Shown here: in pieces, positions 1 through 35,004 of the stretch
Layout: every line of letters starts with the position of its first letter
How positions within the stretch are numbered: the first letter of the stretch is position 1
Source: Prosthecobacter sp.
GTDB lineage: Bacteria > Verrucomicrobiota > Verrucomicrobiia > Verrucomicrobiales > Verrucomicrobiaceae
Length of the DNA stretch: 35,773 nucleotides
Assembly (NCBI GenBank): GCA_030827515.1
Contig: JAUREI010000018.1
Location: 1 to 35,773 of the forward strand
Direction: 5' to 3'
Made by a program: the position numbers and the translations under genes
The notes under the pieces: model-generated
The model's database searches: none
What the model saw: only the letters and a program-made list of their open reading frames with translations
What the model was told of the DNA's origin: nothing

Positions 1-1116
1 GCGCTTTTTGACCTCCATGTGCATGCCCGCGAACCCGGCCAGGAGGAGAAGGAGAACATCGCCAGCTGCGCCGAGGCCGCCATCAACGGCGGCATCACCG
101 GATTTGTCATGATGCCCGACACCGCGCCGGCGGTGGACGGCGCCGGCACGCTGCGCTCGGTGCTTGAAAGCGCCCATCGCAGCCGCTTGGGCCAGGGCAT
201 CCTCGCTGCCGGTGCCATCACCAAGGGACGCATGGGCCAGGAACTGGCGGGCATTGCCGGCATGAAGGCCGCTGGCTGTGTTCTGCTCAGTGACGGTGGT
301 CCACCGGTTGACAATCCCCAGGTGCTGCGCCGGGCGATGGAATATGCGCGCGAGTTTGACCTGCCCGTGGCCAGTCACGGTGAGGTGCGTGAACTCTCCG
401 GCAAGGGTTGCATGCATGAAGGCCGGGTCAGTTATGCCCTCGGCCTGCCCGGCATTCCGAGTATCAGCGAGGAGATCGGCATCGCGCGCGACATCCGCCT
501 GGCCGAATTCACCGGCGTGCACCTGCACGTTCAGCAGGTCAGCACCGTCAAGGGCCTGGCGACGATCCGGCGCGCCAAGGAGCGCGGCATTCGCGTCACC
601 TGCGAGGTCTCCCCGCACCATCTCATCTTTCACCACGAGTCCGTTGGCGACTACGACACGAACTTCAAGGTCAACCCGCCCCTGCGCACACCCGAGGACA
701 ATGCGGCCCTGATCGAGGGACTCCGCGAGGGTTGGATCGACGCTGTCGCCAGCGGTCACGCGCCGCACACGCCCTTCGAAAAAAACCAAGATTTCGCCAG
801 CGCGCCCTTCGGCATCACCGGCCTGGAGACCGCCCTGGTCAGTCTGCACCATCACTTCATCGCCGCCGGCACGCTTGACTGGGGAGTGCTGGTGCGGCGC
901 TGTTCCGCCGAACCAAGACGCTTGCTCGGTCTGCCACCGGTGCCGGTGCAGGAGGGCGGGATTGCTGAATTCGTGGTCTTCCAACCGCAGCGCCAGACGG
1001 TTTGCTCCCGGGACTTCCTTCAGTCGAGGAGTTCCAACACGCCCTTCCTCGACCGCAGCCTCACGGGCTGTGTCGAGCGGGTCATCAGCCGGGGGGTCGA
1101 ACTGATCGCCCGCTGA
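1..1116 (+). CDS. pyrC: Dihydroorotase-family protein, 5'-truncated by window edge; probably catalytically impaired
   Basis: The frame is open from base 1, so the start lies upstream; 371 codons are visible and end at TGA 1114-1116. Family membership is clear: the first codons give DLHVHAREPGQ, the HxH metal motif of class I dihydroorotases (pyrimidine synthesis, carbamoyl-aspartate to dihydroorotate). The region around codons 97-126 (SDGG...ASHGE) and the EVSPHHL block also match. Several positions that are usually ligands or catalytic differ. The HVST histidine is Gln (codon 179, 535-537). The Asp of the usual DHAPH motif is Gly (SGHAPH, codon 252, 754-756). The usual SDDG is SDGG (289-300). 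The H-x-H pair and the H of ASHGE remain. In other bacteria, inactive PyrC-like chains serve as structural partners of aspartate transcarbamoylase; such a role here is inference. It converges on the glutaredoxin gene with a 6-bp gap. Confidence 0.88.
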   Translation, partial: ALFDLHVHAREPGQEEKENIASCAEAAINGGITGFVMMPDTAPAVDGAGTLRSVLESAHRSRLGQGILAAGAITKGRMGQELAGIAGMKAAGCVLLSDGGPPVDNPQVLRRAMEYAREFDLPVASHGEVRELSGKGCMHEGRVSYALGLPGIPSISEEIGIARDIRLAEFTGVHLHVQQVSTVKGLATIRRAKERGIRVTCEVSPHHLIFHHESVGDYDTNFKVNPPLRTPEDNAALIEGLREGWIDAVASGHAPHTPFEKNQDFASAPFGITGLETALVSLHHHFIAAGTLDWGVLVRRCSAEPRRLLGLPPVPVQEGGIAEFVVFQPQRQTVCSRDFLQSRSSNTPFLDRSLTGCVERVISRGVELIAR

Positions 1117-32105: not shown

Positions 32106-32663
32106 TCAGATCATCCCCAGCTTCATCTTGCCCTCAACCGAGATCATGCCCTGATTCCATGGCGGATCCCAGACCAGTTCAACAACGGCGTCATCCATGT
32201 CCTCGATGGTCATGATCCGGCTTTGGGCGTCGGCGGCGATGGTCGGTCCCATGCCGCAGCCCGGGGCAGTGAGGGTCATCTTGACGACGGCGCGGTTTGT
32301 GCCGTCTTCGGTGGCCTCGATGTGGCAGTCATAGACGAGGCCGAGATCGACGATGTTGACCGGAATTTCCGGGTCATAGACGTTCTTTAGCTGGTTCCAG
32401 ACGGCACCCTCCAGTTCGCTGGCATCCTCGGGCACGTTGGAGGAAGTGCTCTCCGACTCCCTGCGCGCGGCCTCGGGATCAATGCCGAGCGCGTCCGCGT
32501 CCTTGGCGGCGATGCGGGCGAGGCCGAAGTCCGTTGCGACCGTGTAGGTGCCACCGAGCGACTGAGTGATGATCACCTTCATGCCCAGCGGCAGCTTGAT
32601 GGCGTCGCCGCTGGGAATCTGGATGGCGTCGACTTCGCGTTTGAGTTCGAGGGAAGAATGCAT
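32106..32663 (-). CDS. sufT: Fe-S cluster assembly protein SufT (MIP18/DUF59 family)
   Basis: A 185-residue protein. The ATG at 32661-32663 (MHSSLELKREVDAIQIPSGDAIKLPLGMKVIITQSLGGTYTV) gives the N-terminal extension that is specific to SufT. The DUF59 domain occupies about residues 85-185: WNQLKNVYDPEIPVNIVDLGLVYDCHI, and TLTAPGCGMGPTIAADAQSRI with the conserved Cys. SufT assists maturation of Fe-S proteins in the cytoplasm and is often next to suf genes, which are absent here. The stop lies 76 bp upstream of the purL start on the same strand, so it may be co-transcribed with purL-purQ. The control region between sufT and infC is divergent. Confidence 0.93.
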   Translation of the reverse strand: MHSSLELKREVDAIQIPSGDAIKLPLGMKVIITQSLGGTYTVATDFGLARIAAKDADALGIDPEAARRESESTSSNVPEDASELEGAVWNQLKNVYDPEIPVNIVDLGLVYDCHIEATEDGTNRAVVKMTLTAPGCGMGPTIAADAQSRIMTIEDMDDAVVELVWDPPWNQGMISVEGKMKLGMI

Positions 32664-32793
32664 GGTGGTGGGACCGGTGGCGCCGGCTTGGGCGATTGGC
32701 AATGACCGAACCGCAATCATGGCTTCATACCGCACGGCAGCGTTCTGTAAAGCCCGGGGCGGGGGTCGCGGGGTGACTTTGCCGGAAAACCTC

Positions 32794-32822
32794 TTGCCCC
32801 CCGCTAAGAAATTGGCTATTTT
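32794..32822 (+). promoter_or_regulatory. Candidate sigma-70 promoter for infC
   Basis: TTGCCC (32794-32799), a 17-bp spacer and TATTTT (32817-32822) form a fair sigma-70-like pair in the intergenic region, and the local sequence is AT-richer than its surroundings. The transcript would have a leader of about 240 nt before the AUU start, which contains the hairpins described below. No other pair is as good, but this is a match by eye only. Confidence 0.35.
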
Positions 32823-32856
32823 TACGTATCTACTGCAAGGCGGTGCCTTCCGCCCT

Positions 32857-32899
32857 GGCAGGGCAGGATTTCAAACTCCTGCGTTGCCGCCCCGTTTTT
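32857..32899 (+). promoter_or_regulatory. Terminator-like hairpin in the infC leader (candidate attenuator)
   Basis: GGCAGGGCAGGA (32857-32868) and TCCTGCGTTGCC (32877-32888) form a 12-position stem with one mismatch, one G-U pair and an 8-nt loop. Six bases later comes TTTTT (32895-32899). A preceding small hairpin, GGCGG/CCGCC (32840-32854), could compete, because its GGCGG can also pair with CCGCC at 32887-32891. The arrangement resembles an attenuator; it lies about 170 nt before the infC start. Confidence 0.4.
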
Positions 32900-33019
32900 C
32901 TCCGCATGACAGCCCACACGAATCCTTCCAAACGCCCGCATGATCGGGCAGGGGAGCGGTTGTCCATGCCATCCAGGGTTCGCATGGCTTGATTCGTCTG
33001 CCACCGTGCCCGCACGCCT

Positions 33020-33043
33020 TTCAAAGACCCATGGTTCTTTGAA
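33020..33043 (+). promoter_or_regulatory. Perfect hairpin just upstream of the infC ribosome site
   Basis: TTCAAAGA (33020-33027) pairs perfectly with TCTTTGAA (33036-33043) around an 8-nt loop. The stem ends 12 nt before the GGAGGT ribosome site. Such a hairpin could help control translation initiation of IF-3. Confidence 0.45.
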
Positions 33044-33055
33044 CTCAACCCACCC

Positions 33056-33061
33056 GGAGGT
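33056..33061 (+). promoter_or_regulatory. Ribosome binding site deciding the AUU start of infC
   Basis: GGAGGT is the strongest Shine-Dalgarno sequence in the neighbourhood and lies 5 nt before ATT 33067-33069. No ATG or GTG start follows within reach in frame; the next in-frame ATG is at 33316. This makes ATT (AUU) the start, as known for infC in many bacteria, where IF-3 discriminates against its own AUU codon and so limits its own synthesis. Confidence 0.85.
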
Positions 33062-33066
33062 TCCCC

Positions 33067-34023
33067 ATTAGCAATCCATTCCAAAGCATCAACAGCGGCC
33101 AGTTCAAACCCGGACAGGGAGGACCCGCTGGTCAGCCCCCTGCGGGTCGTCCCACCGGGCCCGCCAGTGGCACTCCACGTCCCACCGGGCCTGCCAGTGG
33201 CGCACCCCGCCCCTCCGGTCCGTCGCGTCCTGCTGGACCTGCTGGACCTGCTGGACCTGCTGGACCTGCTGGACAGCGCCCCGGTCCCACCGGTCCGCCC
33301 GCCTTCCGTGGCGGCATGGGTGGCTTTGGCGGCAACCGCGGCCCGATGCGCAACAACCGCAATGGACGCTATGTCGACCAGACCCGGGTCAACGAACGCA
33401 TCCGCGCTCCCAAGGTGCGTGTTCTTGATGGTGTCACCAACCAGCAGCTGGGTGTGCTGCCGACCGCTCAAGCCCTGCGCATGGCGCGTGAGCGCGGTCT
33501 CGACCTCGTGGAAGTCGCGTCGAATGCCGAGCCGCCGGTCTGCAAGATCGTCGACTACGGCAAATACAAGTACCTCCAGGAGAAGCACAAGAAGGAGGCC
33601 CACAAGAACCACAAGGGCGGCAAGGTGAAGGAAATGAAATTCCGCATCGGCATCGACCCACACGATTACCAGATCAAGATCCTGCACGCGGAGGATTTCC
33701 TCGCGGAAGGCCACAAGGTGCGCATCCAGCTTCAGTTCAAGGGTCGCCAGATGGCCCACCAGGAGCTGGGGCATGAACTGGCCGCCAAGATCAAGACTGA
33801 TCTGCAGACGATGGGTCACGCCGACCAGGAGCCGAAGATGGCCGGCCGCAACATCAACATGCAGATCAGTCCGCTGCCGGAGCGCCAGCGCGTGCGCAAG
33901 TTCAAGACCCACCTGAAGGGGGTCACCGCCCACGCCGACATCCAGCATCACGAGGGTCACGACCCGCGCGAAGATCGCCACGACGTCGAGGACGCCCACG
34001 ACGACGACCCGCCCCACGGCTGA
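33067..34023 (+). CDS. infC: Translation initiation factor IF-3 with long collagen-like N-terminal extension, AUU start
   Basis: Read from AUU 33067, the protein has 318 residues, against about 170-180 usually. Residues 1-95 are an extension rich in Gly, Pro and Ala, beginning SNPFQSINSGQFKPGQGG. It includes two copies of a 10-residue unit (RPTGPASG plus two variable residues) and PAGPAGPAGPAGPAGQ, a Gly-X-Y collagen-like run, then an Arg/Gly-rich segment (FRGGMGGFGGNRGPMRNNRNGR). The IF-3 core follows: RVNERIRAPKVRVLDGVTNQQLGVLPTAQALRMARERGLDLVEVASNAEPPVCKIVDYGKYKY (N domain), the Lys-rich linker, and KEMKFRIGIDPHDYQIK...LRRE-like C domain. The C-terminus is His/Asp-rich (HHEGHDPREDRHDVEDAHDDD). 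IF-3 binds 30S and proofreads initiation. The usual rpmI-rplT partners do not follow. Confidence 0.93.
   Translation: MSNPFQSINSGQFKPGQGGPAGQPPAGRPTGPASGTPRPTGPASGAPRPSGPSRPAGPAGPAGPAGPAGQRPGPTGPPAFRGGMGGFGGNRGPMRNNRNGRYVDQTRVNERIRAPKVRVLDGVTNQQLGVLPTAQALRMARERGLDLVEVASNAEPPVCKIVDYGKYKYLQEKHKKEAHKNHKGGKVKEMKFRIGIDPHDYQIKILHAEDFLAEGHKVRIQLQFKGRQMAHQELGHELAAKIKTDLQTMGHADQEPKMAGRNINMQISPLPERQRVRKFKTHLKGVTAHADIQHHEGHDPREDRHDVEDAHDDDPPHG
33148..33207 (+). repeat. Two 30-bp tandem repeats coding the RPTGPASG unit
   Basis: The units 33148-33177 and 33178-33207 share 25 of 30 bases or so, differing mainly in the last codons and at one third position. They lie in the coding region for the N-terminal extension of IF-3 and code two RPTGPASG-x-x decapeptides. 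Confidence 0.7.
33229..33273 (+). repeat. Five identical 9-bp tandem repeats coding (PAG)5
   Basis: CCTGCTGGA is repeated five times without a mismatch, in frame in infC, coding PAGPAGPAGPAGPAG. Perfect identity in a 9-bp unit implies recent expansion or slippage; copy number changes would keep the frame. Confidence 0.9.
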
Positions 34024-34086
34024 TCCGTTGGCTTGATCAGGATGGTTTCGCTGGCCGGCCTCGCCGGTTCAGTCCAAATTGTCGTC

Positions 34087-35004
34087 ATGCCGACGGACGA
34101 ATCCTCCCAGCGCACCGCCAGGCGCGCCATGCGCCTGTCGCTCTTTGCCAGCTTCCTGCTGCTGGCCCTGAAGCTCGGCGCCTACACGCTCACCGGCTCG
34201 TCCGCCATCCTTGGCGACGCCGCGGAATCCGTGGTGCATCTGGCGGCGGTGTTTTTCGCCTCCTTCAGTCTCTGGCTGTCGCAGCGCCCCCCGGACGCCA
34301 ACCATCCCTACGGCCACAGCAAAATCGCCTTCCTCTCGGCCGGTGTCGAAGGTGCGGTCATCCTCGCCGCCGCCGTTTACATCGCCGTCGAGTCCGTGCG
34401 CCGCTGGGCCGGCGGCCAGATGGTGACCCAGGCCGGCCTGGGCATGCTGCTGACCGCCGTTGGCATCGGGATCAACCTGGTGCTGGGCTGCGCCCTGCTG
34501 CGAACGGGACGACGTCATGGACTGCTGATCCTGCGCGCGAACGGCCGGCACGTGCTCACCGACGCCTGGACCAGCTTTGGCGCACTTGCCGGCCTTGGCA
34601 TGACCCAACTCACCGGCCGACCCTGGTGGGATCCGCTGTTCGGGCTGCTCATCGCCGGCAACATTCTCGTCTCCGGCTACGGTCTGGTGCGCGAGAGCGT
34701 CACCGGCCTGATGGATCAGGCGGATCCGCGTCTGGCACGTGAACTTGAGGAGGCGCTGGACCGTGAAACTGCCGCGCGCGGTGTCAGCTACCACGCCCTG
34801 CGCCATCGAGATTCCGGCGACGTCCACCATGTCGACGTCCATCTGCTTTTTCCCGACGCCATCCTGCTGCGCGACGCCCACCGGCTTGCCACCGAAATTG
34901 AGCGCGCCGTTGCTGCCGCGGTCGGCTCCCGCCTGCAGATCACCACCCACCTTGAAACGGCTGGTGATCATGACCACATCCACCCGCGTGAATTCGAACT
35001 CTGA
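34087..35004 (+). CDS. Cation diffusion facilitator (CDF) family transporter
   Basis: A 305-residue protein with six likely membrane segments, the CDF norm. I chose ATG 34087 (MPTDESSQRTARRAMRLSLFASFLLLALKLGAY); an ATG at 34042 would add 15 residues of no clear family similarity. TM2 has GSSAILGDAAESVVHLAAV, with the conserved Asp but His where many members have Asn or Asp. TM5 has HVLTDAWTSFGAL, the HxxxD metal site common in zinc exporters. The C-terminal cytoplasmic domain contains HALRHRDSGDVHHVDVHLLFP and the His-rich end HLETAGDHDHIH. CDF proteins move Zn2+, Co2+, Fe2+ or Mn2+ out of the cytoplasm against protons. The metal is not determined. It overlaps the start of birA. Confidence 0.9.
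   Translation: MPTDESSQRTARRAMRLSLFASFLLLALKLGAYTLTGSSAILGDAAESVVHLAAVFFASFSLWLSQRPPDANHPYGHSKIAFLSAGVEGAVILAAAVYIAVESVRRWAGGQMVTQAGLGMLLTAVGIGINLVLGCALLRTGRRHGLLILRANGRHVLTDAWTSFGALAGLGMTQLTGRPWWDPLFGLLIAGNILVSGYGLVRESVTGLMDQADPRLARELEEALDRETAARGVSYHALRHRDSGDVHHVDVHLLFPDAILLRDAHRLATEIERAVAAAVGSRLQITTHLETAGDHDHIHPREFEL

Follow-up and report, generated by a model that had tools for sequence, protein, structure and literature searches.

A long N-terminal extension of translation initiation factor IF-3 in Prosthecobacter, apparently read from a non-AUG start codon behind a conserved leader

Initiation factor IF-3 is an essential and otherwise compact protein, with roughly a dozen residues before the core in Escherichia coli, and the infC gene of Prosthecobacter sp. 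raises the question of what a long Gly/Pro/Ala-rich stretch, coded partly by perfect repeats, is doing ahead of that core, and whether it is translated at all. The window, by which the whole analysed stretch of 35,773 nucleotides is meant, is one entire contig (G000:C224) of the metagenome-assembled genome (MAG), 4.05 Mb in 315 contigs, of a Prosthecobacter-type member of the Verrucomicrobiaceae, and the gene is defined there by the following features:

33067..34023, forward strand: infC, translation initiation factor IF-3, 318 amino acids, ATT start (TIGR00168 at 192.5 bits, Pfam, open frame)
33056..33061, forward strand: Shine-Dalgarno sequence GGAGGT, 5 nt before the start codon (GGAGG in 45/45 genus loci)
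33388..33873, forward strand: IF-3 core, IF3_N and then IF3_C (Pfam, solved IF-3 structures, pLDDT)

The core is that of an ordinary IF-3. The TIGR00168 score lies far above the cut-off of 60, PF05198 (IF3_N) covers residues 108-178 with 103.4 bits against a cut-off of 26.9, PF00707 (IF3_C) covers residues 186-269 with 100.3 bits against 34.8, and residues 104-270 align with solved IF-3 structures, with pLDDT above 90 across much of the core. The factor is single-copy, with one PF00707 match in the genome. The infC frame meets a TGA at 33040 and is then open to 34023, its first ATG, GTG or TTG being found at 33316, and the ATT at 33067 is the only candidate infC start in the window with a Shine-Dalgarno match. 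The combination of a non-AUG start and a Shine-Dalgarno site, as in the self-regulated infC class, is present in the window and in the loci of the genus. Ahead of the core the following parts are distinguished:

33067..33384, forward strand: N-terminal extension of 106 residues, Gly/Pro/Ala/Arg-rich and predicted to be disordered (pLDDT, composition, charge, coding evidence)
33067..33105, forward strand: conserved N-terminal motif (M)SNPFQxxNSxxF (ISNPF in 45/45 genus loci)
33148..33207, forward strand: tandem pair of 30-bp units, 87% identical (repeat analysis)
33229..33273, forward strand: five identical 9-bp units, (PAG)5 (repeat analysis; unique in the genome)
33301..33378, forward strand: Arg/Gly/Asn-rich segment adjoining the core (from the translation)

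An IF-3 match was found in 46 of 48 genomes of the genus, and 45 loci were readable, one being excluded as truncated before the motif. ISNPF opens the frame behind GGAGG in all 45, with ATA as the start in 26 and ATT in 19, this count being the success of a rule that accepted I followed by S or N with GGAGG upstream. The first-pass annotation had taken the repeats as a translated part of IF-3 and had named the case that would overturn it, namely that they are untranslated 5' UTR and the protein begins at the ATG 33316 or 33346. Both of these in-frame ATGs exist, and an ATG lies inside the extension in 14/45 loci; however, neither ATG of the window has a Shine-Dalgarno match, and in 12/45 loci the stretch from the AT(A/T) start to the core is free of ATG, GTG and TTG. 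Against the AT(A/T) start, an in-frame canonical start lies 13-17 codons upstream of it with no stop between in seven of the 45, and an internal ATG or GTG with a Shine-Dalgarno core occurs in 3/45. Among the 14 closest pairs of loci, which share genomes and hence are non-independent, the tail differences are distributed over codon positions 1/2/3 as 104/63/477 of 644, and the gaps are multiples of three in 29/29 cases in the tail against 9/16 upstream. The third-position excess and the gap lengths show that the extension is translated, coding sequence; the reading of the repeats as untranslated was rejected on this frame evidence and is very improbable. Compared with G009 and G018, the tail of the window differs by 20/18/38 and 37/33/43 across the codon positions and shows two gaps (23 and 1, together 24) that are not multiples of three; because the differences are spread over the codon positions, the alignment is locally poor there. 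A nucleotide-level reading of another kind would place selection on an RNA or translation act, with a GC- and Pro-rich message start that slows ribosomes or folds and so tunes infC output. Its footing is at 33067-33081, where the start and codons 2-5, AT(A/T) AGC AAT CCA TTC, are near-invariant as nucleotides in the genus (AGC 44/44, AAT 41/44, CCA 44/44, TTC 44/44) and where CCA exceeds the top-codon share of at most 0.68 at five conserved core prolines, which points to some nucleotide-level constraint at the very start. However, core Phe and Asn codons show strong bias as well (up to 1.00 and 0.93), a conserved core Ser for comparison is absent, and only CCA is telling; moreover, the tails have 0-4 stall-type proline motifs each, that of the window having 0, and third positions vary freely past the start. 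The very start of infC may be constrained as RNA plus protein, as judged from codon usage, but an RNA-level cause of the tail as a whole is quite unlikely.

The repeats themselves are largely as first annotated. The 9-bp unit CCTGCTGGA stands five times, identically, at 33229-33273 and codes in frame for (PAG)5, as borne out by TRF (array 33229-33274, 5.1 copies, 100%), by the translation and by the period-9 match of the window tail, which was equalled by 0/500 codon shuffles. The two 30-bp repeats do form a tandem pair (33148-33177 and 33178-33207, coding RPTGPASGTP/RPTGPASGAP), identical at only 26/30 positions, and the Gly/Pro/Ala-rich extension, put at about 95 residues, is real and slightly longer, with 106 residues before RVNERIR. 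A DNA pattern coding (PAG)3 has no other site in the assembly, and, the contigs being those of a MAG, an assembly error in the 9-bp array may be involved. Among the 45 genus loci (PAG)5 is private to the window, the next longest PAG run being three in one genome, and it is missing from the 78-residue tail of the nearest relative, G009, which the core tree joins to the genome of the window (99/93). Judged by this comparison, (PAG)5 is best read as a local expansion in a single lineage within a Gly/Pro/Ala/Arg-rich disordered tail. The supposed variation in length is seen as tails of 78-107 residues (median 97) and PAG runs of 0-5 across the 45 loci, which compare species and not strains.

What is kept in the tail is its composition and charge. 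The pooled tails contain Gly 22%, Pro 21%, Ala 11%, Arg 10%, Gln 8%, Asn 8% and Ser 7%, with Lys and Glu at about 0.1% each, and the net charge is +6 to +10 in 45/45 loci. AlphaFold gave pLDDT block means of 42-49 over residues 1-100, with secondary structure absent there, from a 38-row alignment in which the tail is poorly aligned; the tail is accordingly predicted to be disordered, low pLDDT being a predictor and not a measure of disorder. The charge keeps the suggested RNA binding by the Arg/Gly segment plausible; against it, RGG, GRG or GGR motifs number only 0-2 per tail, where RGG-box RNA-binding tails have several RGG/RG motifs. A similar Gly/Pro/Arg tail was not found, by eye, in IF-2 and two Rho genes of the same genome; two Rho-type RNA-binding matches lie there on two contigs, L206 (G000:C149) and L207 (G000:C44). 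At its other end IF-3 has a His/Asp-rich, acidic C-terminal tail (33880-34020; 47 residues, net -4 in the window), which in the genus is 47-96 residues long with a net charge of -4 to -14 (32/44 loci measured, 12 dropped by the search pattern) and is thus opposite in charge to the basic N-terminal arm. In one genome, G027, infC occurs a second time as a partial copy cut by the edge of a contig (L203, G027:C77), with an 88-residue tail nearly the same as the first, which could be contamination or a strain mixture.

Upstream of the gene, four further features precede the start codon:

32794..32822, forward strand: promoter-like site, TTGCCC (32794-32799), 17-nt spacer and TATTTT (32817-32822) (conserved position)
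32829..33066, forward strand: predicted 5' leader of infC, about 240 nt, with the transcription start placed from the -10 site (conserved blocks)
32901..32972, forward strand: 72-nt conserved leader element with P1 GCATG/CATGC, P2 and P3 CCCG-loop-CGGG (match to the model R1 at 45.2 bits, alignment, covariation)
33020..33043, forward strand: inverted repeat or hairpin just upstream of the Shine-Dalgarno sequence (12-nt arms, 92% complementary, spacer absent)

The pattern TTG(C/A)NN-16..18-TA, a loose one, recurs 272 to 294 nt before the start codon in 43/43 loci with enough upstream sequence, 2/45 loci being without a match or sliced wrongly. In the upstream alignment TTGC forms a conserved column, and the spacer of the promoter-like site often holds GCTAAGAAA or GTGAAAGT. 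The blocks GCATG, CCCG..CGGG, CATGC and TGATATG are kept across the genus, and the loci are not alignable upstream of the promoter-like site; on these alignments the leader appears real and conserved. The 72-nt element aligns without gaps in 43/44 loci (alignment A2, one locus left out). Changes on both sides were found in 11/17 pairs of the named structure (shuffled mean 6.6, 0/500 as high), the covariation score is 0.228 against 0.170 when shuffled (0/500), and paired cells amount to 100% in P3, 84% in P1 and 69% in P2, the last having only 4 contiguous pairs in the window copy. When the structure was slid as a control, cells with changes on both sides numbered 39 against 35 for the proposed structure, but with far fewer paired cells. 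A scan of the order with R1 gave one match, beside infC, in each of 22/23 genus genomes and in 0/89 others, all 22 matched genomes being in the R1 training set and the lone miss being a truncated contig. A model from one clade (18 loci) found 17/26 held-out loci at E <=0.01 and a sequence-only model 19/26; the bits were higher with structure in 18/22 loci found by both, the score types being not strictly comparable, and neither matched eight sister loci. The folding z-score of the leader averages -0.94 (5/44 below -2, window -0.32) against -0.01 in coding controls, and that of the region of the hairpin before the Shine-Dalgarno sequence -1.16 (7/44 below -2, window -1.30). After arm swapping, the pairing of P2 equalled that of the real arms in 425/1480 cases; these z-scores and this swap rest on 44 rows, of which one (G027) was anchored at the wrong place. 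With that row corrected and in a fixed register, P2 has at least 5 pairs in 31/44 real loci, though not in the window, against 27% of swapped pairings. RNAalifold on 38/44 leaders gave 15 pairs at -6.27 kcal/mol, with the lower hairpins misaligned. The element is probably structured, the structure being moderately supported.

Rfam returned zero matches at gathering score over 32300-34200, and two sub-threshold matches, of which one, mascRNA-menRNA (E 0.12), lies within the leader, were judged to be chance. The L20_leader (Rfam RF00558) is defined by a covariance-model match upstream of infC-rpmI-rplT, an arrangement not found at this locus. Downstream, infC is not adjoined by rpmI-rplT; L20 sits on a different contig behind an L35-like frame (L35 recognised by eye), and because of this separation L20 control of infC is unlikely.

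As to the origin of the arm, IF-3 tails in nine other-genus genomes of the family are 21-37 residues long in seven and 88 in G485 (L231), while the start codon of G282 was not assignable. The short tails of the sisters are already basic and Gly/Pro/Asn-rich, e.g., INPSFNNRPRPGFNRGGRFQDQT, and therefore a short tail was lengthened. In the core tree the genus is grouped (96/78) with G485 outside, on a long branch whose placement is unsure, which suggests, from sequence comparison, that the long tails of the genus and of G485 are separate expansions. In another family of the phylum, G185 (L241) has a candidate tail of 79 residues, its candidate start being without a Shine-Dalgarno match, and a relative there has 33 residues; this and the tail of G485 appear to be separate expansions in the phylum, where tail lengths were read among the matches listed and the motif was found in 37/59 loci.

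With translation so argued, the readings of the arm as a protein have to be weighed. It had been called collagen-like, and a tract folded into a collagen-type triple helix would trimerise IF-3; the window does have five uninterrupted Gly-X-Y triplets (p 0.05 against shuffles) and lag-3 Gly enrichment (p 0.004). However, the longest run in each of the other 44 loci is at most four triplets, the lag-3 signal there has p >=0.12, and Pfam matched no collagen family in five proteins at E values up to 1, so that neither a long, uninterrupted, conserved Gly-X-Y tract nor the label derived from it can be retained, and a triple helix is scarcely credible. It is possible, if doubtful, that the tail is translated without any selected function, as a low-complexity stretch which slippage in GC-rich DNA has expanded and which is tolerated as harmless to the core: the rapid change in repeat units and length would suit it, as would the seemingly repeated origin in G485, its branch unsure, and in the 79-residue candidate without a Shine-Dalgarno match, but a long tail, the positive charge and the motif stand in 45/45 loci with zero losses among them. 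It is also conceivable, though unlikely, that tail and leader act as a pair, the arm and the N-terminal motif of IF-3 binding its own 72-nt leader element, so that, once infC had left rpmI-rplT, binding to RNA would supplement the AUU/AUA feedback. The sampled sisters with tails of 21-37 residues are without R1, and the sister with the 88-residue tail has a sub-threshold R1 match at a matching offset, about 171 nt before the start; shared ancestry could account for this co-occurrence.

The reading preferred here, with a probability of roughly 0.55, is that of an expandable, RNA-contacting, disordered tether under non-AUG control of infC. Its start, frame, conserved composition and charge, and in-frame gain and loss of repeat units are read from the sequences; the contact with RNA we infer. 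The gene would be translated from AUU in the window, or AUA/AUU in relatives, behind a strong Shine-Dalgarno site, giving an IF-3 whose N-terminal arm, about 80-105 residues long, is disordered, rich in Gly, Pro and Ala, and basic through Arg. As a flexible tether, the arm may make additional weak, multivalent contacts with RNA (the ribosome, mRNA or its own leader) and may carry the conserved N-terminal motif outward. Selection would then act on charge, flexibility and motif only, with repeats such as (PAG)5 gained and lost by slippage, and, by analogy with E. coli and Streptomyces, the non-AUG start would let IF-3 repress its own translation.

Several known systems resemble parts of this locus. 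IF-3 is reported to repress infC from ATT in E. coli and ATC in Streptomyces, and these genes are like that of the window in the core domains and in a non-AUG start behind a Shine-Dalgarno site (PMC5472188); in contrast, about 106 residues precede the core in the window, AUA is the commonest start in the genus (26/45), and infC stands apart from rpmI-rplT. InfC (Dsg) of Myxococcus xanthus has, according to PMC2129111, a 66-residue extension essential for development and dispensable for translation, which is likewise long and lineage-specific but C-terminal. Tails around the IF-3 core are found also in yeast Aim23p and human mtIF3, and Aim23p needs at least one of them, their proposed role being to adapt the core to the ribosome; these factors are, however, organellar, and the N-extension of Aim23p is modelled as helical, as against the Gly/Pro/Arg tail of the window (PMC6321546). 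In Firmicutes, an L20-interacting structured leader lies upstream of infC in the infC-rpmI-rplT operon (PMC6097659), likewise before infC; the window differs from it in the Rfam result and in the genes downstream, and also in that a terminator run is absent behind the hairpin preceding the Shine-Dalgarno sequence.

Judged by title and abstract, open-licence PMC yielded no paper describing, for this group, either an N-terminal extension of IF-3 or a leader before infC; a disordered arm of this kind, specific to a lineage and N-terminal on IF-3, is apparently undescribed for the group, tails of IF-3 being known elsewhere, in Myxococcus and mitochondria. Gene callers limited to ATG, GTG and TTG miss the IF-3 N-terminus in this group, as gene callers are reported to do for Streptomyces infC (PMC5472188). 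An arm found throughout the genus, its charge staying fairly constant while its sequence drifts, would constitute a natural series, from 21 to 107 residues, that may be useful for studying the effect of terminal tails on start-codon selection and ribosome binding.
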